A stretch of DNA of 64,000 nucleotides. Origin: Oxynema aestuarii AP17 (GTDB lineage Bacteria; Cyanobacteriota; Cyanobacteriia; Cyanobacteriales; Laspinemataceae). How positions within the stretch are numbered: position 1 is the first letter of the stretch; every line of letters starts with the position of its first letter. Where the stretch lies: NCBI RefSeq assembly GCF_012295525.1, contig NZ_CP051167.1, positions 3,579,501-3,643,500 on the forward strand, given 5' to 3'. The notes beneath the pieces are model-generated. The model was not told the origin of the DNA. It saw only the letters and a list, made by a program, of their open reading frames with translations, and searched no databases. The position numbers and the translations under genes were made by a program. Below are positions 5,770 to 40,189 of the stretch, in pieces.

Positions 5770-7515
5770 CTATAAAATCACCGTCGGCGCTTGGGGTTCG
5801 ATATCCGGCACTTCGCCGCCAACTTTGGCACACTGACAGTCGATCGAAGTTGCCCCATGTCGGTTGAGAACCCGCATCAACTCCATTTCGCCGCGACGGG
5901 GTAACATCGTTTTCCAAGCCAACAATGCCTCTTTCATCGCCCCCAAGTCTAAGAAATTGCCGTTGCGATGGATCGCCACATCTTCGTTATCGCCGCGCCA
6001 CCCTTTGGGGACGTAACCGAGGGGAATCAACATCGATCGCTCTACATCGTCTAACAACGCTTCCAAACGACGAAAACGCCCGACGTGAAAATCCTTGGGA
6101 TTGGCTTCCAGCCACTGTTTCACCGTCGGATCGGCGAACACTTCCTGGCGCAGTTGGGCGATCGCCGCAAACAGGGCTTGATGGGAATCTTTGACGCAAG
6201 AGGTGGCGGGAGTGACTACGGACGCGCCATTTCCCGGTCCGGTCCGGTAGCGCGCCGCCATCAACGCCAACTGCTGGACGATCGCCCCGAGGGGATCGAA
6301 CGTGCGATCGCCCAATTCGTAGGGAACCGTCAGTTCCGGCAGCCGAACGACGACATCGGAGACGGCGATCGTATACATCCAGCCGCGCTCCAAATTCCCC
6401 ATATACTGGTGCCAATATTGCGCCCCGGAGACGATCGCGTTGCGGTTGTGAGCGTAAATCTGACGGTAAACCAGATCGAAGCGCAACTTTCCGGTAAACT
6501 CGTCGGTTACGACAGTGGCAAACCCGAAAGAAAAATGACCCGTCACGAAACCGAACGGCAGGTTTCTGCCCCGTTTCCCGCCGCGCCATCCGAAGGTATG
6601 CACTACTAACGCCGTATCCCCTTTATACCAAAGTTCGCGCGTGCGCCGCTTCATATACTCCGGCGTCCTCTCGGTTTCCGGAACGATCGCCCCGTTATTA
6701 TCTACGAGAGTCTGACGCACTTGACCGACGGGCATCGGTTCCCACTTCGTATCCAAAAAATAATCTAACGTTTCGTCGCGACCCGTCACCATGCGCGTCG
6801 GCCCGAGTTGCAGTGCTTCCACGGGTTCGATCGCCTCCACCGCAAAGGTTCCCGACTCGTCAAAGTCGCCGTAAACGTACCATCCCCCATCGTTTAAGGG
6901 CGATTTTTCAATATTTTTTATCGAACTTTGTTCTACCGGATCGACGGCGTAAACGGTTCCGGCTTTGGGAAAGCTCATGACCTCGGAGGAGGCATCGAAT
7001 CCCTCGGTTTTCGGGTTGTAATGGGCGACTCGATAGCGCTTTTCGCCTGCGGGGGCGATAAATTGAATCAGGGCTTTTTTGACCCCGGACAGTTGGATCG
7101 GTTCGTCGTCAATTTCGACCACCCAGAGGGGACCGTCCTGTAGCACTTCGACGACATCGAGTTGCACGCGCACGTCGTCGTCGGCGCGACTTCCGGCGAG
7201 GGATTCGAGGGGACTCACTTGCTTCCACCCATCGAGGCGGGTGGGGTGAAAGGTGCCGATTTTTTCCATGGTCTGCCAGGTGACTTCATCGAAACGGAGG
7301 TCGATGGTGGCGCGATCGATCCAAGTTCGATGGCGGGATTGGGGGTGCCATCTCACCCAAAGGTATTGACCGAGGAGGTGGCGGTAAGCTTTGGGGGCAT
7401 TTTCCAGGAGGATGAAGACGCCGCCATCGGGGCGACGTTCGGCGTAAAAGGGGAGAATCAGGCGACCACTCCAGGGGGCGACGGGACGATAAAAACGGGA
7501 ATTGGCTGGGTTCAT
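5770..7515 (-). CDS. Large hypothetical protein, possibly cyanobacteria-specific
   Basis: 581 residues, no signal peptide or membrane helix. The N-terminal third looks like an OB- or beta-barrel-like fold (LLGQYLWVRWHPQSRHRTW at about 46-64). The middle contains a Trp/Arg-rich motif (HTFGWRGGKRGRNLPFGFVT). The C-terminal third is helical and ends with two cysteines (IDCQCAKV). I cannot name the family. Codon use and HIP1 density match the surroundings, so this looks like a native gene. Start ATG at 7513-7515. Confidence 0.6.
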   Translation of the reverse strand: MNPANSRFYRPVAPWSGRLILPFYAERRPDGGVFILLENAPKAYRHLLGQYLWVRWHPQSRHRTWIDRATIDLRFDEVTWQTMEKIGTFHPTRLDGWKQVSPLESLAGSRADDDVRVQLDVVEVLQDGPLWVVEIDDEPIQLSGVKKALIQFIAPAGEKRYRVAHYNPKTEGFDASSEVMSFPKAGTVYAVDPVEQSSIKNIEKSPLNDGGWYVYGDFDESGTFAVEAIEPVEALQLGPTRMVTGRDETLDYFLDTKWEPMPVGQVRQTLVDNNGAIVPETERTPEYMKRRTRELWYKGDTALVVHTFGWRGGKRGRNLPFGFVTGHFSFGFATVVTDEFTGKLRFDLVYRQIYAHNRNAIVSGAQYWHQYMGNLERGWMYTIAVSDVVVRLPELTVPYELGDRTFDPLGAIVQQLALMAARYRTGPGNGASVVTPATSCVKDSHQALFAAIAQLRQEVFADPTVKQWLEANPKDFHVGRFRRLEALLDDVERSMLIPLGYVPKGWRGDNEDVAIHRNGNFLDLGAMKEALLAWKTMLPRRGEMELMRVLNRHGATSIDCQCAKVGGEVPDIEPQAPTVIL

Positions 7516-10654: not shown

Positions 10655-11830
10655 TCACTCGCGATCGCGGGTAGAGGAGTAACGAGCGAGTAAATTGATG
10701 GCGGATTGTAGGTGTCGTTGAGCCAAAGATTCGGGAGCGAGAATTTTGGCACGGTCGGTATAACGGTTAACCCAAAGCAAGAACTCTTCTAAGGAACGTT
10801 CGGGTAAGGGAAGAGAATAATCGACATATTGATGCTCGCCTTGTCGATCTTTGGGGCCGAGTTTGATGTGTTGATGAGGATGGCGACGCTCGCCTTCGAG
10901 AATGAAATTGACGACCGGAGGGAAAAAGCGCACTTTCACCGAGATCGGTTCTAAGGTGCCATTGAGTTCGGCTTGTTGTTCGTCGAGTTCGCCTAAATAC
11001 AAACCCCATCCGTTTTCGAGTAACCCATGAGCCGCCTCTAAACGTTGTTCTTGTATAGTGAGAGGACGTTGCTGGTTGAGGAATCGGCAATAGTTACGGA
11101 AGCGATTCAACCGACTGACGGCGAGTTGTCCGGTTTCGACATATTCGTAAACCAGATACCAAGCAATATCGTGATAAATCAATTGTAACGGCCAGATGCG
11201 GGTAGAACCATACCGATCGCGACCGTAAAGATCGAGGGAGCGCGATAATTCGACAGCTTGACCGTCGAGGATGGCGGTTTCGAGTCGGTCGAGTTGAGCG
11301 AAAAGGGTATCTCGTCTGGAACCGCGCAGATGTTCCGGGTCGGTTTCGACTATCGTGCGATTGAGATGGGAGCGCACGGGATAGAACAATTTCCCTTGAG
11401 CTTCTACATCTAAACCGCGCAATCTTTTGCTGACTTGTTGGTAAACGCGACGGGCGATCGGATTGGCTTGATACTGGGCTTGAGAGGCTAAAGCATGCAA
11501 TGCCACTTGCAATTCTTCTAAGGTCATGGCGCCCGTGCCGAGATAGTAACCCCAACGATACATGCGGCGATCGAGGATCTTGTAATCGCGTAAGGTTTCT
11601 AAATCTTTGCGTAACGTTGCCGGAGCTGGATAATCCGGCGGCCATTGAAACTCACTCCCCAACTCCAAGACTTTCGCTCGCACAGCATCGAGAGCATTGC
11701 GATGTTTCTCCGATTCCTTGATTTTGCATTCCCCCACCCCTGGATAACGCACTAGGGTGGCCATCAACACCATCAATCGCTCGAAAGCCGTGCGATCCGA
11801 ATAAGCATGAATACTGGGTTTTTTGGCCAT
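10655..11830 (-). CDS. WYL-domain transcriptional regulator next to the CRISPR locus
   Basis: 391 residues. The N-terminus (about 10-120) looks like a winged helix (ATLRKDLETLRDYKILDRRM). The middle carries the WYL-type beta domain (RIWPLQLIYHDIAWYLVYEY, then RLNRFRNY), and the C-terminus has the usual WCX-like segment. WYL proteins bind ligands, often nucleic acids or nucleotides, and repress genes; a WYL regulator (Sll7009) represses a CRISPR locus in Synechocystis. Here the gene is divergent from the cmr operon with about 250 bp between them, so control of cmr is a reasonable inference, not shown. Confidence 0.85.
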   Translation of the reverse strand: MAKKPSIHAYSDRTAFERLMVLMATLVRYPGVGECKIKESEKHRNALDAVRAKVLELGSEFQWPPDYPAPATLRKDLETLRDYKILDRRMYRWGYYLGTGAMTLEELQVALHALASQAQYQANPIARRVYQQVSKRLRGLDVEAQGKLFYPVRSHLNRTIVETDPEHLRGSRRDTLFAQLDRLETAILDGQAVELSRSLDLYGRDRYGSTRIWPLQLIYHDIAWYLVYEYVETGQLAVSRLNRFRNYCRFLNQQRPLTIQEQRLEAAHGLLENGWGLYLGELDEQQAELNGTLEPISVKVRFFPPVVNFILEGERRHPHQHIKLGPKDRQGEHQYVDYSLPLPERSLEEFLLWVNRYTDRAKILAPESLAQRHLQSAINLLARYSSTRDRE

Positions 11831-12269: not shown

Positions 12270-13991
12270 ATGACTGAATATACTGCCATTACATTTGCTC
12301 CAGTACAAGGGTTTATTGAAAAGTCACGGAAATTACGAGATTTATATGGAGCTTCGATCGTCCTGTCTTATTTAAGCTCTAAGCTCGTAGAATCAGCATT
12401 ATCTCAGGGATTGGAAGTTATTTCACCGGGATTGCCGAATTTGCAAAAAGGGATGCCTAATCGGATCCTCATTAAAGGAAAATTCGAGCGTAATGATGTT
12501 GAAAAAGTTTTGTTGGATGAATGGAAAAAAGTTTTAGTTATTTGTCGAGAATGGATAGAAGAGAATTTGGGTTTTCCCAAAGATAATTATTCTTGGTCGC
12601 AAACCGAAGAGCAAAAAGGGAAGCAAAAAGGAGAATGGGAGCGCTGGGAAAGTTATACCTGGGAAATTTTCTGGGGACATGGTAACTCTGTCGATCGCGC
12701 AATGGAAGACTTAGAAACTCGGAAGTTAAAACGAGGTTGGACGGGGATTAATTGGATGGGCGAAAGTTCGAGTTTAACCGGAACGGATGCGATCGCATGG
12801 CATCAGCTAGGAAGAACATTAGAGAAAGGTGAAGATCCGGGGCGATCGCTCACCCCCGAAGAAAAAGACGCCCTCGAACTATTCTACCGACGTTTATCCT
12901 GGTTACTGGATAATCCAGACTATCGAGTAGGGAAACCTCATTTATCTTTACAACAACTCAGAGACTATGAAGAGTCAAAGCCAGAAGAGATTGGTAAATA
13001 TATTGCACCTAACGAACGTTTAAGTATTCCCGAATTAGTTAAACGCTTAGTTACTTACGATGCTATTGCCGATGAAATCGACATGGTCAAACTTAAACCA
13101 ACTAAAAACGATCCAGAGTTCAAAGATATTAATCGTAATGCTGGATATTGGACAGCTTGGTTTATGGGGGATGGGGATAAAGTAGGAGACAAATTACAAA
13201 TCCTTGCCACTCGTAACCCTGACAATTTAGAAGAGGGCGATCGTAATTTAAAAACCTTTACCGACCTTATGAGAAACTGGGGTAAAGAATTTGAAAAGCA
13301 GTCCGATTCATTTACAGCCGGAGAAATGCGCGTTATTTACGCAGGTGGCGATGATTTTTTAGGAGTTTTATATAGTAAAGAAAGCAAGAACCAGGAAAAC
13401 GCATTGAAAATCAAACCGAGCGATGCTTTTGAATGGTTACGGAAGCTACCAATTTATTGGGAACAGTTACAAAAAGATATTGACGATCGATTAAAACTTC
13501 AGTTTACCTTTAGTGTGGGTTTTGTATGGGCTGGGCATCAAGTTCCCCAACGAGATATTTTACAACATTGTCGGGAAGCCGAGAAACGGGCAAAGAGTTT
13601 AGGGCGCGATCGCGTGACGATTCGTGTGGTATTTAATAGTGGTCAATATGTGCAATGGACTTGTCCTTGGGATTATTTAGATATTTTAACCAAATATCGC
13701 GATCGCAATCAAAAAACAGGAGCAGAAGCCAATTGGAATCACATTTACAGCGATTGGGCGCAATTAAAAGCTCGTCATGCAATTCGCTTGCAAACAACTG
13801 AAAACAATCCGATCGTTAAAGATATTGCCTTATCTTTATTTGATTTATATTTTGATAATGCAGCAGATCGGTTTCGTAAACAGCGAAAGTGGGTTTATTT
13901 GACTGGAAAGATCGACGATGAAACAATAGTTAAGTGGTTGGATGACCTGATTGAAATAGGATGGCAACTATGTCGAAGTTCGAGTATTTAA
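12270..13991 (+). CDS. cmr2: Type III-B Cas10/Cmr2 lacking the HD domain
   Basis: 573 residues. It starts directly at the first palm domain (AITFAPVQGFIEKSRKLRDL, about 6-25). The second palm domain holds the cyclase motif in VIYAGGDDFLGVL (GGDD at about 359-362), so synthesis of cyclic oligoadenylate from ATP upon target RNA binding should be possible. Typical full-length Cmr2 proteins carry about 200 more residues with the HD DNase in front; here those are missing. The matching effector is the CARF-HEPN gene downstream. First large gene of an operon with overlapping neighbours: cmr3 begins inside its last codons. Confidence 0.9.
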   Translation: MTEYTAITFAPVQGFIEKSRKLRDLYGASIVLSYLSSKLVESALSQGLEVISPGLPNLQKGMPNRILIKGKFERNDVEKVLLDEWKKVLVICREWIEENLGFPKDNYSWSQTEEQKGKQKGEWERWESYTWEIFWGHGNSVDRAMEDLETRKLKRGWTGINWMGESSSLTGTDAIAWHQLGRTLEKGEDPGRSLTPEEKDALELFYRRLSWLLDNPDYRVGKPHLSLQQLRDYEESKPEEIGKYIAPNERLSIPELVKRLVTYDAIADEIDMVKLKPTKNDPEFKDINRNAGYWTAWFMGDGDKVGDKLQILATRNPDNLEEGDRNLKTFTDLMRNWGKEFEKQSDSFTAGEMRVIYAGGDDFLGVLYSKESKNQENALKIKPSDAFEWLRKLPIYWEQLQKDIDDRLKLQFTFSVGFVWAGHQVPQRDILQHCREAEKRAKSLGRDRVTIRVVFNSGQYVQWTCPWDYLDILTKYRDRNQKTGAEANWNHIYSDWAQLKARHAIRLQTTENNPIVKDIALSLFDLYFDNAADRFRKQRKWVYLTGKIDDETIVKWLDDLIEIGWQLCRSSSI

Positions 13992-15097
13992 TTACGATTT
14001 CTCCCTTGGGGTTAATGTATGGTAGTGCTGGAGCATTTTTATCTCCAGAAAATTTAGTGGGGCGATCGGGAAGTAAATTCCCACCAGATGCAGCTACGGT
14101 TGCCGGACTTTTCTTTAATGCTAATCGAGAGAATCAATTTATCGACCATGAACAACTTCAACAAAATTTAGTCATCACCGGTCCGTTTTGGGCAAATCGA
14201 GATACTCCCAAACAGTTTTACGTACCCATTCCTTGGTATAAAATTTTAGGAGATGATGATAGTGACGAATGGACTCTTCTTGAAAAAAAACATAATGGCC
14301 AACCTATTGAGAGCGGAAAATCTGAAAGCTCATCGGATACTCAATGGTGTTTGGGGCGGCATGAGTGGCATCGGAACAATAAAGATTTACAGCCAGAATA
14401 TAGTTGGCAGTTAATTGATAATTGGGAGTTTTCGGCTAACCAATTACATAAAAATAAAGGAACAACTCAAGCTATTGCTAAAGCTCCTTGGGAATTTGTT
14501 TCGTTTCTGCATCCTAAAATCAGAGCTGACGAACGGCATGTTGTAGAACAAGATGGACTCTTCCTGGAAAATGCCGTGCAGTTGGATCGACAATACTGTC
14601 TAGTTTACTTATCCAATTACGAAATTCCTGATGGATGGTATCGTTTTGGTGGGGAAGGGCATCTAGTAGAACTAGAAACACAACTCTTGCCTGAAAAACA
14701 CAAAATCAACTTATTACTAGAGCAAAAAATCCAACATGCTTGTGCTTTAATTACTCCTGGAGTATGGGGATCTAATAAGTTGTCATATCGTTATCCCAAA
14801 CATGCAAGTTTTCCACGCAAAGGAATGAAATTGTTAACGGATAAAGCCATTCCTTATCGTTATCGTTTGGGTCACAATAAAAAAGATCGAGAACAAGGAG
14901 AAGAAAAATATAAGACAGGAAGATTAAGCCGAGGTCGTTATGCAATGCCTCCTGGAAGCGTTTATGTTTTCAAGCATCCCTTAAATATGAATTGGTGGGA
15001 TTTTCCTGATGAGTGGTTCCCTAAAGAAGGATTTCCACTGAAACATCTAGGATGTAGTTTGTGTTTGCCTGTAAAGATTCAAGGAGTACCTCAGTAA
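13970..15097 (+). CDS. cmr3: Type III-B RAMP protein Cmr3
   Basis: 375 residues from the second in-frame ATG (MSKFEYLITISPLG), 9 bp inside the longest frame; both starts overlap the cas10 end. The N-terminal block EYLITISPLGLMYGSAGAFL is typical of the Cas5-like Cmr3 RAMP fold, and the glycine-rich C-terminal half (RLSRGRYAMPPGSVYVFKHP) is the usual RAMP loop. Cmr3 contacts Cas10 and the crRNA 5' tag in the Cmr complex. The stop codon overlaps the cmr4 start (TAATG at 15095). Confidence 0.85.
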   Translation: MSKFEYLITISPLGLMYGSAGAFLSPENLVGRSGSKFPPDAATVAGLFFNANRENQFIDHEQLQQNLVITGPFWANRDTPKQFYVPIPWYKILGDDDSDEWTLLEKKHNGQPIESGKSESSSDTQWCLGRHEWHRNNKDLQPEYSWQLIDNWEFSANQLHKNKGTTQAIAKAPWEFVSFLHPKIRADERHVVEQDGLFLENAVQLDRQYCLVYLSNYEIPDGWYRFGGEGHLVELETQLLPEKHKINLLLEQKIQHACALITPGVWGSNKLSYRYPKHASFPRKGMKLLTDKAIPYRYRLGHNKKDREQGEEKYKTGRLSRGRYAMPPGSVYVFKHPLNMNWWDFPDEWFPKEGFPLKHLGCSLCLPVKIQGVPQ

Positions 15098-15918
15098 TGT
15101 ACAACAAAGCCTACGGAATTATTGAAACCCTAGCCCCGCTTCATGTTGGAGCTACTGCTGGAGAAGAAACCGGAAATCTCAACTTAATTTTCCGCGATCA
15201 ATTTACACAAACGGGTATCATTCCAGGTAGCTCAATTCGGGGACGATTTCGTGCAGACATGAGAAGCCGTCACCCTGGAGAAGAACAAAGGTGGTACGGA
15301 CATGAAGCGGTTGAAGGTCGTCAAGATGGTGGAACAACTGAAGCCTTAGTTAAATTTGAATATGCTTCGTTAGTGTGGTTTCCTGTTTTTTGCCCCGGTC
15401 AACCTGTCGTCTGGGTTAGTTGTCCTCTTCTATTAAAACGATTTAAGCGTCTTGCGGGCATCGATGAAAATGTCCCCGCTCCTTATACAGCACAAAGAGG
15501 ATTACAAGGGCGACAAATGCAAGATCGTGGGAAGATTCTATTTTTTAACTTAGGATTTCTAGAAATTGAAAATGAAGAGAATCTATCTCAATGGATTCCT
15601 CATGGAACTGATTTAGATGCTAATAAATTAGTGGTCGTTCACGATAACGATATTGCGATGTTGCATGATATGGCTTTATATCGTCAAAGTCGGGTAAAGT
15701 TGTTAGATGACATGAAAAAAGTTGATACTGAAAAGGGAGCTTTTTTTAATACTGAAGCCTTGCCCGAAGGGAGTATCCTCGTGTTCCCCATTGCCTTGAA
15801 AGAAAAGGGATGGAAGCCATTTAATGAAGAGCAAAACTCTTGCGAATTATATTTTGGTGGCTTGGAATCAATTGGGTTTGGCCGTTGTCTTGTATCTCTT
15901 GCAGGAGATTATCAATAA
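15097..15918 (+). CDS. cmr4: Type III-B backbone RAMP protein Cmr4
   Basis: 273 residues starting MYNKAYGIIETLAPLHVGAT, preceded by AAGGAG. The segment GIIPGSSIRGRFRADMR is the RAMP nucleic-acid-binding loop, and the C-terminal GGLESIGFGRCLV is the G-rich loop. Cmr4 forms the Cas7-like filament along the crRNA and cuts target RNA every 6 nt with a catalytic Asp in the thumb loop; I cannot place that Asp with certainty, though VHDNDIAMLHDM is a candidate area. Start and stop both overlap neighbours by one base (TAATG). Confidence 0.88.
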   Translation: MYNKAYGIIETLAPLHVGATAGEETGNLNLIFRDQFTQTGIIPGSSIRGRFRADMRSRHPGEEQRWYGHEAVEGRQDGGTTEALVKFEYASLVWFPVFCPGQPVVWVSCPLLLKRFKRLAGIDENVPAPYTAQRGLQGRQMQDRGKILFFNLGFLEIENEENLSQWIPHGTDLDANKLVVVHDNDIAMLHDMALYRQSRVKLLDDMKKVDTEKGAFFNTEALPEGSILVFPIALKEKGWKPFNEEQNSCELYFGGLESIGFGRCLVSLAGDYQ

Positions 15919-16334
15919 TGGGTTGGAAATCTTACGAACTCGATCGCGCAGCTCAAAAGTTAGTTTTAGCCGCACGGGAACGCGACTCAAAGTCGCTTAA
16001 TCAATCTTATAAAATGCGGATGGCAGTTGCTTACGGTTTGGAACGATTTTGGGGCGAACATCTGCGTTTGGCTGGTAAAGAAAAAAATAAATCGATTTTC
16101 TGGAAGGAAACATGGGACGCACTACAGAAAATCATGAAAAATGCAGGAGTGACAATTCCTAACGATCGAGTCAATCCTGACAATACACAACAAATTCAAA
16201 GTATGTCTGAAAAACTTTGGAAATTATCATTAGAGGACCAACGAGTTACTTTAGCTGTCCTAACTCAACTTTGCGATTGCATAGTTTGGTGGACTCAACG
16301 ATATAAAGGAGGGAAAAATGAGACAGATTCCTGA
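15918..16334 (+). CDS. cmr5: Type III-B small subunit Cmr5
   Basis: 138 residues from the ATG that overlaps the cmr4 stop (TAATG). All-helical, starting MGWKSYELDRAAQKLVLAAR, with a conserved helix MRMAVAYGLERFW and a C-terminal helix ending CIVWWTQRYKGG. Cmr5 forms the inner filament of the Cmr complex. Family length is 120-150 residues, which fits. The longer frame from 15840 lies inside cmr4 and is not used. Confidence 0.85.
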   Translation: MGWKSYELDRAAQKLVLAARERDSKSLNQSYKMRMAVAYGLERFWGEHLRLAGKEKNKSIFWKETWDALQKIMKNAGVTIPNDRVNPDNTQQIQSMSEKLWKLSLEDQRVTLAVLTQLCDCIVWWTQRYKGGKNETDS

Positions 16335-18057
16335 TGCCTATAAAAAAGTTCCGATGATGTTTCGATCGCCAATTCCCGGGCGTTCTCAATTACAATATCT
16401 CGACAAAGATAAAAAGAAAGCGCGTGAAGCGCAAGACGTTGAAAAGTGGGTTAGTGAATGGACAGATAAATCACAACTCATTCCAGAAGAAAATGCACGG
16501 GATGTAGAGACTGAAACATTTCAAGCGAAGTCTTATCAAGTGTCTTGGCGTTTTGTGACGAATGGGGGGCAAGATGATGGGATCGTTCGTCCTGTCATTG
16601 GCGCTTCGGGAATCCCTTTTTACCCAGGGAGCAGCATGAAAGGTGCATTTCGGCAAGCTTGCGAACAGGCAGAACAACTAGGAGAAATTCCGGAAGGAAC
16701 TTGCAATATTTATTGTGGTAATGAAACAGATATTACCCCAGGATGTTTGAGGTTTGAAGGTGCTTATCCTACCAACGATTGGAGAGAAGGTTTACTTGAC
16801 TTAGTTCACCCTCAGCAAGGTTGGCAAGTCATAACTCCTGACACTAACAAGAAACCAAATGGGGAAAGTGCATATGCTCAAATTTCTCTAGACCGACCCA
16901 CTTTAAGGTTTGCAATTTCCAGTGCTAAGCCGTTGTCCTCGCAACAGTGGGAACAAATTTGGCAGATTTGGGAAAAAGCGATCGCCTCTGGATTGGGGTC
17001 AAAAGTTTCTGGGGGGTACGGTCAAATCAATCAAACATCTCATCGTATTCTTTATAAAGCCAAGCTAAAAGGTCAAGGCCAAGCCGCTAAATTGATTGAT
17101 GAAACTGGAGAATTTCGCCCTAATATTTTTCGGGCGGCACTTCGAGGTCATGCTTTAAGAATTTTTGGAGGCTTGACAGATGAAAGCACGGCACAAAATC
17201 TAGTTCAACATTTATTTGGAGGCATTCAAGGAAATGAACCGACCGTCGGACTCTTAGGATTTCAATTTCAACCTTCACAACTGGAAATTGAATCTTTTGG
17301 TTCGGGTCAATACGCTCAACCTACTTATGATGTAAAAGGTGAACTTATTTGGTTTCTAACTCGACCAATTGCCGACCCAAACCAAGAAAGAAGATTAAAA
17401 AATCTAGTCGCTAGATTAATGCAATTTGCCATGATTTTTGGGGGCTTTGGCAAATCATGGCGCCGTGTCGATCATCGAATATTCTTTGAAGAATATTATG
17501 AGGACACATATAAAGCTTTAATTGGTTGTCATTGGCAATGGTTAGACAAATCAACAAAACGACGCAATGTTAAAGTAGGTCGAACAGAAAAAATCGCTGA
17601 ATTTATAGATCGGGTTCGAGATACTGCGAGAGAATGGATTCAATGTCAAAATCAGCCGCTCAATGAAAACCAATGGGCTAGCGATTGGCGAGAAGCTTGG
17701 CATCCCAGGAATGTTCAAGTTTGGGGTCGTGTCGCAGAGGATATGGATGACAGTGTAGCAGTACATTGGTTTCACAAGTCCTATCAACAAAGAATTCAAG
17801 GTATACAGTCAGAAGGCTCGATCTACAAGTCATCGGTAACCGGAAAACTTGGCCAAATCAGCTTAATTTGGCATCGAATGTATCCTGTTATCCTGGTCAA
17901 AAAGAATCCTGAAGATCCAAAACAGCCAATTGTCAAAAATACTTGTCGTTATTTGGAACTTATTACAATTTTTCCAGATAACTCTAAAGAATGCGATCGG
18001 TTTTTAGAGTTTTTGCATACTCATCCTGAAAATTTTCAATTATTGTGGGGAGAATAA
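16318..18057 (+). CDS. cmr6: Two-domain RAMP protein: Cmr6 fused to a Cmr1-like half
   Basis: 579 residues. The first half (about 1-240) has the Cmr6/Cas7-like loop GIPFYPGSSMKGAFRQAC (residues 100-117) and a closing glycine loop GLGSKVSGGYGQI. The second half (about 255-560) begins with FRPNIFRAALRGHALRIFGG, a second RAMP start typical of Cmr1 or Cmr6, plus MIFGGFGKSWRRVDH. There is no separate cmr1 in the locus, so this protein probably supplies both 3'-end subunits. RBS AAGGAGG precedes the ATG, which lies inside the last codons of cmr5. Usual Cmr6 length is about 300. Confidence 0.8.
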   Translation: MRQIPDAYKKVPMMFRSPIPGRSQLQYLDKDKKKAREAQDVEKWVSEWTDKSQLIPEENARDVETETFQAKSYQVSWRFVTNGGQDDGIVRPVIGASGIPFYPGSSMKGAFRQACEQAEQLGEIPEGTCNIYCGNETDITPGCLRFEGAYPTNDWREGLLDLVHPQQGWQVITPDTNKKPNGESAYAQISLDRPTLRFAISSAKPLSSQQWEQIWQIWEKAIASGLGSKVSGGYGQINQTSHRILYKAKLKGQGQAAKLIDETGEFRPNIFRAALRGHALRIFGGLTDESTAQNLVQHLFGGIQGNEPTVGLLGFQFQPSQLEIESFGSGQYAQPTYDVKGELIWFLTRPIADPNQERRLKNLVARLMQFAMIFGGFGKSWRRVDHRIFFEEYYEDTYKALIGCHWQWLDKSTKRRNVKVGRTEKIAEFIDRVRDTAREWIQCQNQPLNENQWASDWREAWHPRNVQVWGRVAEDMDDSVAVHWFHKSYQQRIQGIQSEGSIYKSSVTGKLGQISLIWHRMYPVILVKKNPEDPKQPIVKNTCRYLELITIFPDNSKECDRFLEFLHTHPENFQLLWGE

Positions 18058-18061
18058 GGTT

Positions 18062-19603
18062 ATGAATTTGTGGATTGTAACGATTGGCAGTAGTGACATT
18101 CAACTCCATAGCGATGCAACTAACAAACAGCAAGGAAGAAGTCAGGGAGAAATGAGTGATGAAATTTGGTCATATTGGTATGAAGATGGGATTAAAAATG
18201 AACATTGCTATAGTGTTGTTTTTGAACCCAAGCGAGCTTTTGAAGATAAGGATGAGAATTATCGAATTGCATCTAGAGTGCTGGGAAATGTTTATGAACT
18301 CTCTGATGAAGACACCCGAACAGAAATTTTTGATTACTTAACATTTCCATTGTTGAGTAAGTTTATTAAAAGGCTCCAAAGCATAGACGTTCCTAATAAG
18401 ATCGCGTTATTGCTTACCGATCAATCTCAAATCTTTAGTAGCGAAGAACAACGACAGGATATAAAATCCCCTTACTGGGATGATACTTGCAAGTTAGAAC
18501 CCATTCTCAAACGTTATTTTGAGAAAGAGTTTCCCAATGTGGAGTTGGAGTTAATGACTTTAAAATTAACTCCTGACGAACAACCGGGGTTAGATGATTG
18601 GAATAAGGTTTTAGAACTCGTTCAAACTGAATTAGATGCCATCAAAATTGAGCCGGATACAGTTTATGTCAGTCATCAAGCAGGAACTCCGGCAATTTCT
18701 TCCGCCGTTCAGTTTATGAGCTTGGCTCGTTTCCGAAATAACGTACAGTTTCTTGTCAGCAATGAGTATACTCAGCAAACTCGTACAATTTATCGCTCAA
18801 CTTATCTAGGAGCAATTCAACGTCAAGAAGCGCAAGCATTATTAGAGCAGCATAATTATGCTGGTATTCGGAATATTTTAGGATTGACAGCCGATTCATT
18901 GGATGAAAAAGCTAAGTCCATTAAGTATTTACTAGATGCGGCTGAGCAATGGAATTTTGCAGAATTTCAGAAATTTAAAACGATTGTCCAAAAACGTAAA
19001 TTACTGGAAATCAAAGAATTTCCTTGGTACCAATCTGGCTATGAATCAGCTTATCTTGCTGTCGTGCGTCTCGAACAAGGAAGTACAGTTGATGCTTTGT
19101 TTCACAGTTTCCGAGCTGCAGAAGGTTCTATTAGTAAGTTTCTAGAAAAACGTTATCAGTCTCATATTTATAGAGATCCAAACCATGGACCTCAAGTCGA
19201 AATCTCGATTCGTCAAGAATTGCCCAACTATTTCAACTCACTTTCTCAGCCCAATAAACACAAGTTTGAAAGGCATCAAAAGATCGGTTTATATGGAGAT
19301 CCTTTATATGACTTATTTAAGGAAGCTCGAACCGAAGCAAAGAATCATCCAGATATAAAAGTTGTTTGGGAAGTTGCTAAAAGCGAAAGAAATAACTTAT
19401 TTCATCGGTTGGATGGCTTACAAGAATCTGAATTGTTCGGAATTTGGAATACTGCAACAGAAATAGATTGGAAAGCAAGATTATTGGCTTGTCTTAACTT
19501 TATCGCTAAAGATGAGCTTGCAGAACCTTTTTCTTCCCTTGAGGAAGCGAGTTTTATGGCTCAACTACACGATCGACTTCGAGAGAAGATCGCATCTTTT
19601 TAA
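18062..19603 (+). CDS. CARF-HEPN ribonuclease (Csx1/Csm6-like)
   Basis: 513 residues. The N-terminal part opens with MNLWIVTIGSSDIQL, a CARF-type first strand, and carries a ligand-loop signature VSHQAGTPAISSAVQFMSL (about 203-221). The C-terminal helical domain has RNNLFH (R443-H448), an exact RxxxxH HEPN ribonuclease motif. Family knowledge: cyclic oligoadenylate made by Cas10 binds the CARF dimer and switches on HEPN RNase, degrading RNA non-specifically. It starts 4 bp after cmr6, so it belongs to the same operon. The exact Csx subfamily is not certain. Confidence 0.82.
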   Translation: MNLWIVTIGSSDIQLHSDATNKQQGRSQGEMSDEIWSYWYEDGIKNEHCYSVVFEPKRAFEDKDENYRIASRVLGNVYELSDEDTRTEIFDYLTFPLLSKFIKRLQSIDVPNKIALLLTDQSQIFSSEEQRQDIKSPYWDDTCKLEPILKRYFEKEFPNVELELMTLKLTPDEQPGLDDWNKVLELVQTELDAIKIEPDTVYVSHQAGTPAISSAVQFMSLARFRNNVQFLVSNEYTQQTRTIYRSTYLGAIQRQEAQALLEQHNYAGIRNILGLTADSLDEKAKSIKYLLDAAEQWNFAEFQKFKTIVQKRKLLEIKEFPWYQSGYESAYLAVVRLEQGSTVDALFHSFRAAEGSISKFLEKRYQSHIYRDPNHGPQVEISIRQELPNYFNSLSQPNKHKFERHQKIGLYGDPLYDLFKEARTEAKNHPDIKVVWEVAKSERNNLFHRLDGLQESELFGIWNTATEIDWKARLLACLNFIAKDELAEPFSSLEEASFMAQLHDRLREKIASF

Positions 19604-19842
19604 TCAGTTATTGGGCGATCGATAATTTACCATTAATTCGTGTAAACTCTCTCCCAATGGGGTCTAGAGATTTTGCAAAATGAATTAGCCCAAGCACAAC
19701 TCGCTTAGTTTTCACTTTTCGCTTTTTGGGGAAGACGATCGCCATTCTCTACTGTCATGAGATCGCCTCCCCCCCTTCATCTCATCGAGGCATCTTTACG
19801 CGCCTCTTTCCAGCTTTTTACCAATCAAATAGGAGTACCTTA
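19604..19842. other. Intergenic gap before csx18-cas1-cas2
   Basis: 239 bp with no good gene. A frame that continues upstream from csx18 to 19726 is not used because a Shine-Dalgarno and a conserved N-terminus support the ATG at 19843. The gap may hold a separate promoter for the adaptation genes. Confidence 0.4.
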
Positions 19843-20121
19843 ATGTACTTGACTTATCGTTCCGCGTTGGTTCGTAACATTTCTGTTGCCGCTCTCAATG
19901 GTTTGATTACGTTAGTCATTTTGCTGATTGCCCCATTAGGGTTAGCTGCGGTAATTGGCAATACTTTTTTAATTACCCTCGCCAGTTTCTTCACCGGAAC
20001 CTTTGCCGATGTCGTCGTTCGTTATTTGCAACCGAGTCATCCCCCTCGCTCGGTTGCAGCCAGCTTGGAGAATGACTCGGCTCTCGGACAACGCCACCCC
20101 AACCACCTCGACCACCAATGA
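19843..20121 (+). CDS. csx18: CRISPR-associated membrane protein Csx18
   Basis: 92 residues starting MYLTYRSALVRNISVAALNG, preceded by AGGAG at 19831. Two adjoining hydrophobic helices (about 15-60, LITLVILLIAPLGLAAVIGN then TFLITLASFFTGTFAD) make it an integral membrane protein; the tail is polar. Csx18 is a small cyanobacterial CRISPR-associated protein of unknown role found beside type III-B cas1. Its stop overlaps the cas1 start (ATGA at 20118). Confidence 0.82.
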   Translation: MYLTYRSALVRNISVAALNGLITLVILLIAPLGLAAVIGNTFLITLASFFTGTFADVVVRYLQPSHPPRSVAASLENDSALGQRHPNHLDHQ

Positions 20122-21113
20122 GAGCGCTGTATGTTTCCGAGCAAGGGTGTTATTTATCCTTGAATGACCAACTCGTGCGAGTTAAGCGCCAAGAGACCCT
20201 GTATGCCGAAGTACAACTTCCCTTGCTCCAAATGATTTTGATTTTCGGCAAATCGCAAGTGACGACCCAAGTGATTCGGGCTTGTCTCTGGCGCAATATT
20301 CCCATCGTCTACCTGTCTCGCATGGGATATTGCTACGGGCGCATTTTGCCCATCGAACGGGGCTACCGACAACTCGCACGCTATCAAGACGACCTCACCC
20401 TTAGCGACCGCTTGCAAGTCGCTCGCGAAATCGTCTGCACCAAATTGCGTAATTCTCGTACTGTTTTGATGCGACAACACCGCCGTCAACCTTCGTCTTC
20501 TTTAGATTTGGTGATTCAATCCCTAGCCGTACTCGTCGAAAAAGTACGTCAAGCCGACAACATCCCCCGGATTATGGGTTTGGAAGGAGCGGGAGCCGCT
20601 CAATATTTCTCAGCTTTTGGCGATTGTCTCAGTTCTGATGAGTTCATTTTTGGAGATCGTTCTCGTCGCCCGCCCGGAAATCCCGTCAATGCCTTACTGA
20701 GTTTTGGCTATCAAGTCTTGTGGAATCACTTACTGGCTTTGATTGAAGTTCACGGACTCGATCCTTATGTTGCTTGTTTGCACGAAGGTCATCGCTCTCA
20801 TGCGGCTTTGGCTTCCGATTTACTCGAAGAATTTCGTGCTCCTTTCATTGATGCGTTCGTGATGTATTTAATTAATCGCAAGATGATGGACGTTCGTGAT
20901 GATTTTGTTTACCACAATGGAGGCTGTTATCTCAATGATGTCGGACGAGTTAAATATCTGAAAGCTTTTGTCAAACGGATGGAGGAAACTATTACCGATG
21001 AGTTTGGGGAAAGTCAACCGAAATGGGATTTGCTCAATCAACAGGTCAAAGCTTTCAAACAATTCGTTTATGACCCCGTGAAACAACCTTATGTTGCCTA
21101 CCAAATTCGCTAA
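20118..21113 (+). CDS. cas1: CRISPR integrase Cas1
   Basis: 331 residues. The N-terminal beta domain (MRALYVSEQGCYLSLNDQLV) is followed by the helical catalytic domain. The metal ligands are visible: Glu in IMGLEGAGAAQYF, His in ALASDL-preceding LHEGHRSHAAL, and Glu/Asp in SDLLEEFRAPFIDAF. Cas1 with Cas2 inserts new spacers at the leader end. It is not fused to a reverse transcriptase, so RNA-derived spacers would need another route. It overlaps csx18 (ATGA) and cas2 (TAATG). Confidence 0.95.
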   Translation: MRALYVSEQGCYLSLNDQLVRVKRQETLYAEVQLPLLQMILIFGKSQVTTQVIRACLWRNIPIVYLSRMGYCYGRILPIERGYRQLARYQDDLTLSDRLQVAREIVCTKLRNSRTVLMRQHRRQPSSSLDLVIQSLAVLVEKVRQADNIPRIMGLEGAGAAQYFSAFGDCLSSDEFIFGDRSRRPPGNPVNALLSFGYQVLWNHLLALIEVHGLDPYVACLHEGHRSHAALASDLLEEFRAPFIDAFVMYLINRKMMDVRDDFVYHNGGCYLNDVGRVKYLKAFVKRMEETITDEFGESQPKWDLLNQQVKAFKQFVYDPVKQPYVAYQIR

Positions 21114-21394
21114 TGTTGTTGTATGTTATCGTTTACGACCTTCCAGACAATAAGCGGCGTCAGAAAATCCACGACTTGTTAGAAGGATACGGACAATGGG
21201 TACAGTATTCGACCTTTGAATGTTGGCTCAGTTCTGACAAATACGCAGAACTCCAAAAACGGTTGCGTTGCCAACTTAATTTGGATGAAGACAGTATTCG
21301 ATTCTATCCTCTTTCGCGGCATACAGTCGCTCAAGTCGAAACCTGGGGCATCGGTCCGCCTTTATGGAAAATGCCCGGTTCTACAATTGTCTGA
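21113..21394 (+). CDS. cas2: Cas2 spacer-acquisition protein
   Basis: 93 residues with the ferredoxin-like fold start MLLYVIVYDLPDNKRRQKIH and SIRFYPLSRH near the end. The conserved Asp of the first strand is in VYDLPD. Length is standard. It overlaps cas1 by one base, and the array leader starts directly after its stop. Confidence 0.95.
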   Translation: MLLYVIVYDLPDNKRRQKIHDLLEGYGQWVQYSTFECWLSSDKYAELQKRLRCQLNLDEDSIRFYPLSRHTVAQVETWGIGPPLWKMPGSTIV

Positions 21395-21579
21395 CTCTCC
21401 TGCGAGGCTCGTCTCAAATCCCTGAAATGCCCAATCTTCGTTACGAGCCTCGATCCTTTGTCTGTCAAGCCTTTGAGCCTTCTTCCCTCCTCTCTTTTGG
21501 GCCGAATGTCATGACAAAATGGCTGAGGCTCGCAAACCGCCTCTGGACATCTGACCGCATAAGGGTTTCAATAGAGGGG
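21395..21579 (+). promoter_or_regulatory. CRISPR leader
   Basis: 185 bp between cas2 and the first repeat. The repeat orientation (…GGAAAC at the 3' end) and the neighbouring cas1-cas2 both place the leader on this side, with transcription rightward. Short frames here are not convincing. No terminator is visible after cas2. Confidence 0.6.
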
Positions 21580-23669
21580 GTCCCCACTCGCTGGGGAAAC
21601 TAATTGAATGGAAACTATCCCATCGGACTAGGTTTAATCTCATGCTTCTCGTCCCCACTCGCTGGGGAAACTAATTGAATGGAAACTCGGCTTTGGCCTA
21701 TCATCAAAAGGTGCAGGATTGTCCCCACTCGCTGGGGAAACTAATTGAATGGAAACCCTCGATGTTTGCACCCTCTAAATTAACGCCTTCGAGATTGGGT
21801 CCCCACTCGCTGGGGAAACTAATTGAATGGAAACCTGACATCAACGTCAATTTTCACCTTATTCTGATCCTGAGGTCCCCACTCGCTGGGGAAACTAATT
21901 GAATGGAAACCTCCCCGATAGAACTCCTTGTTCGACCGCCGCGAGCCGTCGGTCCCCACTCGCTGGGGAAACTAATTGAATGGAAACAGCTGAGATCGGC
22001 ACCCTCTAAGCATGCGTCACTCGTCCCCACTCGCTGGGGAAACTAATTGAATGGAAACGCCTTCCGTAAGTCTACACCACGTAAGAAGGCGCGGTCGAGG
22101 ATCGCACCGCTCAGGTTGGCTCCCCGGAGAGTCCCCACTCGCTGGGGAAACTAATTGAATGGAAACGTTAAGGTGTCTTTCAGAGAAAGCAGGACGCTCG
22201 CGGGTCCCCACTCGCTGGGGAAACTAATTGAATGGAAACCCCTGAGAGGTTTACACCTGAAAGATCTGAATTGCTGAGTCCCCACTCGCTGGGGAAACTA
22301 ATTGAATGGAAACCATACTACGAATTCGAAGATTTCCTCGCTCTGCCATTCCTGGTCCCCACTCGCTGGGGAAACTAATTGAATGGAAACATACCTTCAC
22401 GGTCTGGCTCCTGAGGGCAGATGTTAAGTCCCCACTCGCTGGGGAAACTAATTGAATGGAAACAGGCCACCTGGGCCGCTAAGTCCAGCATGTTTGAGGG
22501 AGTCCCCACTCGCTGGGGAAACTAATTGAATGGAAACTTTAATGCTCGGAGGTCTATGCCCCCGTACAGCCGAGCCTCTGGTCCCCACTCGCTGGGGAAA
22601 CTAATTGAATGGAAACGGATATGAAACTCTTGATGTTTTATCTCCGAAAGTATGTCCCCACTCGCTGGGGAAACTAATTGAATGGAAACTCTGGGAGGCA
22701 GGCGAACGCCCGAAGGATCTCCTCCTGAAGGAGGGAGTCCCCACTCGCTGGGGAAACTAATTGAATGGAAACCTCATTCCAAACTTTCCTTTTTTGTTCG
22801 TGTAACTCAAATATAGAGTCCCCACTCGCTGGGGAAACTAATTGAATGGAAACGAGGTCAGCGCCCCGGAGGTCAGCGCCCCGGAGATCGGGTCCCCACT
22901 CGCTGGGGAAACTAATTGAATGGAAACGAAAGAACCGCAATGTTTGAGAGAGAGATATCTAGAGTCCCCACTCGCTGGGGAAACTAATTGAATGGAAACT
23001 CAGAATCTTTAAAGTAGCCCATTGGTTTTCCTGGTTCAGTGTCCCCACTCGCTGGGGAAACTAATTGAATGGAAACATAATATAATCGATCTTCGATTCC
23101 GCTATTTCTCGAGTCCCCACTCGCTGGGGAAACTAATTGAATGGAAACGAAGAAGTGTTAGTAACTCCTGGGCTTTATCATTAGAGTCCCCACTCGCTGG
23201 GGAAACTAATTGAATGGAAACTATTCGACCTAACGTGTGGAACTCATTTATTAGAATTAAAAGTCCCCACTCGCTGGGGAAACTAATTGAATGGAAACAT
23301 TTCTCGGAGGTATTCATCCTGGATTTGATTCAGTCCCCACTCGCTGGGGAAACTAATTGAATGGAAACAATACTTTCGTATCCGCCAGTTCTGCTTCAGT
23401 GTCCCCACTCGCTGGGGAAACTAATTGAATGGAAACTTGATGAAGTCAGCAACATCTTCATACTCCAGAGGCTTCTCCCCTAGTCCCCACTCGCTGGGGA
23501 AACTAATTGAATGGAAACAATAACTTATCAATATTCCATCCGTATCATTCTAAGTCCCCACTCGCTGGGGAAACTAATTGAATGGAAACCTCCTCAAAGA
23601 GTTTCTCCCGGTTTTGTACTCCGGATTGGATGAGTCCCCACTCGCTGGGGAAACTAATTGAATGGAAAC
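21580..23669 (+). CRISPR. Type III-B CRISPR array, 28 repeats and 27 spacers
   Basis: The 36-nt repeat begins GTCCCCACTCGCTGGGG and ends AATTGAATGGAAAC; copies appear identical throughout, including the last. Its 5' half folds into a 6-bp stem TCCCCA/TGGGGA. Repeat starts: 21580, 21651, 21721, 21799, 21875, 21952, 22023, 22131, 22204, 22278, 22355, 22428, 22502, 22581, 22654, 22737, 22818, 22892, 22964, 23041, 23113, 23186, 23263, 23333, 23401, 23483, 23554, 23634. Spacer lengths are 32-47 nt, except one of 72 nt at 22059-22130. Several spacers encode pentapeptide repeats on the complementary strand (see findings). No cas6 lies in the window. Synechocystis III-Bv arrays with a similar repeat layout are processed by RNase E, which may apply here. 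Confidence 0.98.
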
Positions 23670-39071: not shown

Positions 39072-40189
39072 GCAATCCTAAGTCATTTGTGGCAAAAATC
39101 CATAAGAATATAGCTTAGGGAAATCAAAAACTTGGCCATCAGCAAATATCTTGAATAGCTCTTTAACTCTTTTAAATGAATCACATAAAAAATAAAATGT
39201 TCTCAAGAAATTTTTAGTTTGCAGCCAAATATCTTCAACTGGATTTTGCTCGGGAGCATTCGGAGCAAACTTCGTACAAGTAATCAACCATTCATCTTCT
39301 TCTAAGCCTTCATTTAGCTCTTTTAAAAAATCTCGAAATTGTTGAGAGTCGTGATACCTGGCACCATCCCAAAAAATGGCTAATTTTTGTCCCGGTCTTT
39401 GTTCTCGTAAGTATTGTATAAACTGAATGGTATTGTCGGTATCGGCTTTCGGGTATTCTTGAAGAATAAATTCATGAGTTTGGTAATCTAAAGCGCCATA
39501 ATAACTTTGGCGACTTTTTTGGTTTTTAATGGGAATTTCGACTCTTATATCTTTTCTTCCCCAAACAAAACCCAAGACGTCTCCCCAAAGAAGATGACAT
39601 TCATCAATCATAAACACAGCAAGCTTTCCAGCTTTGATATCCTCTTCCCAGTCCTTAAGCTTCTTTTGAATTTCTTCTTCTTTTTTTTTGACTAGCTTTT
39701 CATCTTTGGCTGGATTCTTTTTTTGCGACTTTTTCCAGCTCATGCCAGCCGCTTTCAGCAAGTCATAATAACTTTGATTTGAAGAATAAATCACGTTGTA
39801 TTCTTGCTGCAAATATCGTTTTAAGTCAGACAATCTCAAATACTCTTGTTGTCTTATCCATGAAGTGATTTGTGTTTTTTCTTCCGGTTTTAGATAGCCT
39901 TTACTTCCTTTGTATTGAAGATTCAAACTCTCAACACCCTCAAAAATTGCTTTATTTTTCCATTGACTAACGAAGCTCGAAGAAACATTTAATATTTCTT
40001 CAATTTTCTTAGAGGGTTGACCAGATAATTTCATTTTGGCTGCCAATGCTCTCTTCATTTCTTTGGTATTTGTGGTATTTTCAATGAAATTATCTAGCTC
40101 GTCTATGATATTCATGAGGTCTGTCTGATATTGAGAATCTTCCGTGTATATTATAACAAAAAAAGCTTCCATGAATCATTTAGGACTGC
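39072..40189 (-). mobile_element. IS630-family insertion sequence in drmMI
   Basis: 1118 bp flanked by the TA duplication expected for IS630 (39070-39071 and 40190-40191). Imperfect terminal inverted repeats: GCAATCCTAAGTCATTTG at the left, GCAGTCCTAAATGATTCA at the right (complement). It carries one intact transposase gene. A strong -10-like TATAAT lies just inside the right end. Intact ends and frame suggest a fairly recent insertion. Confidence 0.88.
39078..40115 (-). CDS. IS630-family transposase
   Basis: 345 residues from the ATG at 40113-40115 (MNIIDELDNFIENTTN). A longer frame to 40172 starts in the terminal repeat and spans a promoter-like TATAAT, so it is not used. A helix-turn-helix (IEEILNVSSSFVSQWKNKAI) is followed by the DDE domain: Asp in FMIDECHLLWG, Asp in IFWDGARYHD, Glu in NAPEQNPVEDIW. 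It moves the element by cut-and-paste at TA sites. The stop TAG falls inside the left terminal repeat. Confidence 0.93.
   Translation of the reverse strand: MNIIDELDNFIENTTNTKEMKRALAAKMKLSGQPSKKIEEILNVSSSFVSQWKNKAIFEGVESLNLQYKGSKGYLKPEEKTQITSWIRQQEYLRLSDLKRYLQQEYNVIYSSNQSYYDLLKAAGMSWKKSQKKNPAKDEKLVKKKEEEIQKKLKDWEEDIKAGKLAVFMIDECHLLWGDVLGFVWGRKDIRVEIPIKNQKSRQSYYGALDYQTHEFILQEYPKADTDNTIQFIQYLREQRPGQKLAIFWDGARYHDSQQFRDFLKELNEGLEEDEWLITCTKFAPNAPEQNPVEDIWLQTKNFLRTFYFLCDSFKRVKELFKIFADGQVFDFPKLYSYGFLPQMT

Follow-up and report, generated by a model that had tools for sequence, protein, structure and literature searches.

The window analysed here is a 64,000-nucleotide stretch of the genome of Oxynema aestuarii AP17 (contig NZ_CP051167.1, positions 3,579,501 to 3,643,500), and all coordinates are counted from its first letter unless another locus is named. 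It carries a type III-B (Cmr) CRISPR-Cas locus with Csx1, Csx18, Cas1 and Cas2, and the machinery is ordinary. The Cmr complex claimed in the initial annotation was recovered by Pfam and PADLOC, with Cas10/Cmr2, Cmr3, Cmr4, Cmr5 and Cmr6 all found. The features of the locus, in order, are:

12270-13991, + strand, cas10/cmr2, 573 aa (Pfam Cmr2_N and Cas10-Cmr2_palm2; PADLOC Cas10b, 2e-201)
13961-15097, + strand, cmr3 (PF09700; PADLOC Cmr3)
15061-15918, + strand, cmr4 (RAMP, PF03787; PADLOC Cmr4)
15840-16334, + strand, cmr5 (PADLOC Cmr5, 3e-67, match starting at residue 27)
16318-18057, + strand, cmr6-like gene for a long RAMP protein, 579 aa (PADLOC Cmr6, 5e-207)
18062-19603, + strand, csx1, CARF-HEPN effector (PADLOC CARF_HEPN, 2.5e-134; Csx1, 1e-109)
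19726-20121, + strand, csx18, small adaptation-associated protein (PADLOC Csx18, match starting at residue 40)
20118-21113, + strand, cas1, 331 aa (PF01867 alone)
21113-21394, + strand, cas2 (PF09827)
21395-21579, + strand, presumed leader, placed by its position between cas2 and the first repeat
21580-23669, + strand, CRISPR array of 28 identical 36-nt repeats (GTCCCCACTCGCTGGGGAAACTAATTGAATGGAAAC) and 27 spacers of 32-72 nt

The cyclase palm motif GGDD can be read in the Cas10/Cmr2 translation (YAGGDDF), and the true start of csx18 probably lies near 19843. A separate Cmr1 was not found by PADLOC among ten scanned ORFs; the 579-aa Cmr6-like protein could hold a second part. According to Pfam, a reverse transcriptase is absent from the Cas1 of the locus and from its ten scanned neighbours. 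A WYL protein (10655-11830; PADLOC) is encoded on the strand opposite to the cas operon. After the array, PADLOC outlined a dense defence island on the - strand (23709-45696), with a 2039-aa Druantia DruE-like helicase, an IetS-like subtilase, an IetA-like ATPase, a DrmD-like helicase and a type IIG/DrmMI-like methylase, the N-terminal part of which matches a separate ORF (40151-42427). A 364-aa ORF with no PADLOC match (39078-40172) sits between the two methylase parts.

The array was read along the + strand because its repeats end in GAATGGAAAC, which we take to mark the direction, and because the cas genes lie upstream. Mature crRNAs are expected to bear ATGGAAAC and to have the sequence of the window's + strand. 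Base composition changes along the array (window 21616-23633): high G+C (0.57-0.76) occurs in 7 of the 17 leader-side spacers, S01-S17, and in none of the ten spacers S18-S27, seven of which are low in G+C (0.26-0.39). This fall perhaps reflects a change of invaders over time.

Five of the spacers are pentapeptide-repeat (PF00805 type) coding sequence in one open frame. The five-residue period A(D/N)LxX was judged with a five-position score built from 55 segments and 918 pentads of the host's own PF00805 loci, the spacers themselves not being used, and each spacer was scored in six frames against 3000 random windows of equal length. S03, S06, S07, S09 and S17 scored above all 3000 windows (null 99th percentiles from -11.5 to 3.9), and a wider null of 6000 windows gave p = 0 to 1.7e-4 for these five. 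Six spacers had been proposed as antisense to pentapeptide-repeat sequence, with coordinates that coincide exactly with spacer boundaries and translations that are correct; the five above stand, and S13 does not. The six are:

21757-21798, + strand, spacer S03, antisense to NLEGVNLEGANIE, score 24.5
21988-22022, + strand, spacer S06, antisense to SDACLEGADLS, score 21.1
22059-22130, + strand, spacer S07, antisense to LRGANLSGAILDRAFLRGVDLRK, score 39.2
22240-22277, + strand, spacer S09, antisense to SNSDLSGVNLSG, score 21.4
22854-22891, + strand, spacer S17, antisense to DLRGADLRGADL, score 30.8
22538-22580, + strand, spacer S13, doubtful, EARLYGGIDLRAL, score -0.6, p = 0.02

In S13 the leucines are six residues apart, a register slip, and a p of 0.02 is expected by chance about once per two arrays of 27 spacers. 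Spacer S24 has p = 0.009, yet lacks regular pentads. The three spacers thought to fit weakly (S05, S08 and S15, starting at 21911, 22167 and 22690) found no support, with p = 0.18, 0.76 and 0.50, and were rejected as extra members. S07, at 72 nt about twice the usual spacer length, keeps the pentapeptide register throughout its 23 encoded residues and is the only spacer to reach 20 aa. Its peptide matched plasmids weakly in tblastn (E 1 to 8), and 12 of the 15 matches listed, out of 22, are annotated pentapeptide proteins. S17 is itself periodic, 21 of 23 positions being equal after a 15-nt shift. The G+C of the five strong spacers ranges from 0.45 to 0.76, which makes more than one source gene or element likely. 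In agreement with the first description, no pentapeptide gene was seen in the window: in a six-frame motif scan no run exceeded three pentads, and of the six runs of that length one falls on spacer S09.

The excess of one gene class in the III-B array of Oxynema aestuarii AP17 is real, and few of the arrays compared with it show the same. A Cmr2 survey covered 388 genomes including the host, of which 87 others matched; 40 loci, from 40 of these 87, were fetched and gave 50 arrays in 35 genomes, taken by nearness to Cmr2 rather than by individual typing. The loci L091, L100, L103, L104 and L123 gave no array, and false arrays (a two-spacer one in L140 and one in L195) were left out of the counts. 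Among the 1042 spacers of 49 comparison arrays, with the array of one genome, G046, set apart, none combined p < 0.002 with a score > 8, against 5 of the 27 in the window (Fisher p = 7e-9, a guide only, since the array had been picked for its oddness). The non-randomness asserted at the outset is borne out by this comparison. Like-repeat arrays of order members, a set that partly overlaps the survey arrays, gave two weak scores among 669 distinct spacers, and no score reached 15. On these two counts the pattern was rejected as a general habit of Cmr arrays.

G046 belongs to the same class and another order, and 7 of the 44 spacers of its III-B array (L130:3895-7377) score > 8. Six of the seven are antisense and one is sense; two are identical, so that one pentapeptide spacer occurs twice. 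Another spacer runs past the end of a pentapeptide frame, stop codon included (DLAGANRE*), and two adjacent pentapeptide spacers, aligned to each other, differ at 4 of 40 positions. Counting the host together with the 35 array-bearing genomes of the main survey, the excess was seen in 2 of 36.

The host genome has five Cas1 matches and also encodes a type I-D system (Cas3d, Cas10d, Cas7d, Cas5d and Cas6d), the arrays of which hold six strong pentapeptide spacers (score 15 or more) among 134. The arrays beside the I-D cas genes account for 4 of 36 and 1 of 71, the latter array with four more scores between 8 and 14, and a third array, typed as I-D by its near-identical repeat alone, for 1 of 27. 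No strong pentapeptide spacer was present among the 73 in host arrays linked to RT-Cas1 (L137 and L138) or among the 11 of another host array; the window and I-D-type arrays together (11/161) differ from the RT group (0/73) at p = 0.02. Four relatives' arrays fetched with the L141 array, three with the I-D repeat and one with another repeat, contained no strong score and two weak ones among 243 spacers. Since the III-B and I-D systems have separate Cas1 genes and sampled the same class, the shared factor would be the invader rather than one adaptation machine. Reverse-transcribed abundant mRNA was rejected as the spacer source at the III-B locus, because its Cas1 is without a reverse transcriptase and the RT-Cas1-linked arrays gave 0/73. 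Locus L138 (host C1:4264850-4284800) combines an RT-Cas1 fusion, a second divergent Cas1 and a Cmr6-like gene, interspersed with arrays. A stretch of the L141 array (~2132-2169) has an 89% match, running the other way, in the L140 array (~7024-7059), and the two may have been taken from a single source; in L201 the array part near C1:5859811 gave no array in the finder.

All five strong spacers code on the strand complementary to the crRNA (5/5 antisense), and the orientation proposed for the pentapeptide spacers was supported to that extent. Leaning towards antisense is general among the type III arrays examined, and nothing special to pentapeptide spacers. By a codon model that called the coding strand correctly in 77% of test windows, 19 of the 27 window spacers are antisense (p 0.03), or 15 of 21 without the six first named, as are 674 of 1050 spacers in other arrays near Cmr2 (p ~1e-20; four spacers excluded, from an array of uncertain direction). 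Retrained on all frames, the model called antisense 18 of the 27 window spacers, 31 of the 44 in the G046 array and 50 of the 73 linked to RT-Cas1. The relatives' I-D-repeat arrays showed no bias (103/202, or 118/243 with the fourth array), and the host's own I-D-type arrays a slight excess (77/134) that blurs the contrast between type III and I-D. An open-frame count over the 27 window spacers gave no strand difference (47 antisense, 49 sense). The distinct strong pentapeptide spacers of the two III-B arrays are antisense in 10 of 11 cases (p 0.006). Seven spacers of the G046 array match open frames of their own genome perfectly, some on one strand and some on the other, which counts against a strict antisense rule. 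The lean of type III arrays is what would be expected if only antisense guides interfere, as is reported for another III-B system (PMC5576922).

Self-targeting, or regulation of host genes, had been put forward as one possible role of these spacers; the former was rejected and the latter is unlikely. The host genome (one contig) gave no spacer match above 33.7 bits outside the array, and hence no full match. Its pentapeptide genes number dozens (174 model matches, 150 of 377 candidates scored; PF00805 search), and the fewest mismatches to 48 fetched, partly overlapping loci of this kind were 12/42 for S03, 9/35 for S06, 27/72 for S07, 14/38 for S09 and 8/38 for S17, that is, at least eight in every case. 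The 11-mer TTAGAGGGTGC, which codes for LEGA, is common to two window spacers and one I-D array spacer (3/3), and it makes up 1 of the 22 LEGA codon sets in the host's own loci (overlapping loci counted more than once; p 0.002, post hoc). Its scarcity in these loci favours a common non-host source met by both systems.

Pentapeptide genes are carried by phages. They were matched in 432 of 50,697 phage records, seven of them from Microcystis phages, and a figure legend in PMC12542629 marks pentapeptide proteins in Microcystis viruses. The S17 pattern hit one IMG/VR contig, in which the spacer is antisense to a pentapeptide frame and differs from it at 4 of 38 positions, nearer than any of the host's own loci; this contig is G+C-rich, and we regard it as related to the target class rather than as the target itself. 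In one IMG/VR contig of 8.25 kb, three pentapeptide frames occupy ~17% of the length, a rough value from stop-to-stop frames. Were pentapeptide genes to make up 17% of an invader, a count of 5 in 27 would be unremarkable (P = 0.50), and at an assumed share of 3% it would have P = 0.001 and need an extra cause.

An exact protospacer was not found in 13 other genomes of the family, in 242 other genomes of the order (two candidates scored in each, the matches being flooded by same-repeat arrays), in IMG/VR with eight patterns (five for pentapeptide spacers and three for others) or in 84,980 species genomes with two patterns. A hit required near-exact peptides or codons, and the patterns covered only some of the spacers, so that these misses are weak evidence beyond exact sources of those spacers. 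One IMG/VR contig matched the S06 pattern without a similar spacer site. In a pentapeptide context TTAGAGGGTGC occurred in two viral and 14 genome contigs, none better than 8/36 mismatches to any of the 245 own spacers, which belong to eight arrays. Among the matches listed from phage and plasmid records there was no exact protospacer, and besides other CRISPR arrays only short pieces (22 to 43 nt, E 0.2 to 8) with identities of ~83 to 100%, several of them in pentapeptide genes; two further phage searches with I-D-type arrays gave nothing useful. The search of host, phage and plasmid DNA that had been suggested as a check gave no full host match, and no exact protospacer in the mobile elements covered. 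The target is most likely a foreign phage or plasmid element.

We favour, with a probability of about 0.7, a normal III-B array that serves defence, in a host exposed repeatedly to pentapeptide-rich phages or plasmids. Chance or low-complexity resemblance would require the looseness of the pentapeptide code to account for the signal, and for S13, which like the weak spacers falls within or near the null, this is likely true. It is refuted for the five strong spacers, each of which exceeds 3000 random windows, with the Fisher value above (uncorrected for picking by oddness) pointing the same way; as an account of the whole array it is very improbable. Spacers could also derive from host-type pentapeptide genes, of the cell's own ancestors or of sister strains, and regulate or target host mRNA. 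The dozens of pentapeptide genes in the host speak for this, as does the G046 III-B array, which holds seven perfect own-genome spacers (five matching replicon C2 and two C1), so that such systems do self-acquire. However, the G046 array, searched against its own genome, gave 40 matches, none of which, the array itself aside, covers a pentapeptide spacer perfectly, and in the present host the best of the five strong spacers is S17 at 8/38. If spacers were drawn at random from host DNA with an assumed pentapeptide share of 0.6%, a count of 5 in 27 would have P ~6e-7. A host-type origin is rated as quite improbable.

Less improbable, though still unlikely, is that pentapeptide genes are preferred per se. 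Their 15-nt coding repeats would offer several crRNA sites per mRNA, and spacers against them might work better or resist escape and so be retained, irrespective of the element that bears the genes. The periodicity of S17 agrees with this, as does the duplicated G046 spacer, and so does the adjacent G046 pair, whose two members could stem from one site in two gene variants or from two repeats of one gene; 5 of 27 is also above the yield of a modest pentapeptide share in the invader. Such a preference would be common if general, yet the 49 other arrays gave 0/1042 and those of the order members two weak scores among 669. The I-D system has pentapeptide spacers too, although type I-D systems are taken to read DNA. 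In its broadest form, an idea held as tentatively, pentapeptide-repeat genes would be a privileged CRISPR target class in which, owing to the 15-nt periodicity, a single guide has many near-cognate sites along one mRNA; III-B and I-D systems in one cell and the III-B array of a distant cyanobacterium would then have converged on it, the spacers resisting escape or the proteins mattering early in infection.

Under the favoured reading of defence against invaders rich in pentapeptide genes, spacers would have been taken from these genes, and those giving a crRNA complementary to the mRNA would work and hence be kept. On infection the Cmr complex would pair with the foreign pentapeptide mRNA and cut it, and Cas10 would activate the Csx1 RNase by synthesising a cyclic-oligoadenylate signal. 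These steps of interference by Cmr, Cas10 and Csx1 are known for the type III-B family.

The locus resembles type III-B systems with Csx1 in its Cas10/Cmr2, Cmr3-6, CARF-HEPN Csx1 and Cas1-Cas2, in the adjoining array and the repeat end, and in spacers mostly called antisense to coding sequence; it differs in directing almost a fifth of its spacers at a single class of protein and in the lack of a separate Cmr1 among the scanned ORFs. Work on the III-B system of Marinomonas mediterranea reports that only transcript-antisense crRNA interferes and that antisense self spacers are selected against (eLife 2017, PMC5576922). Cas1 of that system is described there as fused to a reverse transcriptase, whereas Cas1 of the window locus is unfused, and it is the RT-Cas1-linked arrays of this host that are without a strong pentapeptide spacer. 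For the RT-Cas1 III-B spacer pools of Arthrospira, the corresponding report describes cyanobacterial III-B spacers without findable sources (mBio 2017, PMC5513706); that RT-linked pool is enigmatic, whereas the RT-less array shows a recognisable target class. No report of pentapeptide genes as a CRISPR target class was found in the parts of the open full-text literature covered, subscription journals lying mostly outside it.

Many cyanobacterial spacers have no known source, and a coding signature that is recognisable without a protospacer can reveal the type of gene carried by the invader. Reading other orphan spacers by their coding signature is therefore suggested. Within this one cell, two CRISPR systems converge on one gene class and the RT-Cas1-linked arrays contain none of it, a hint that different invaders have been sampled.
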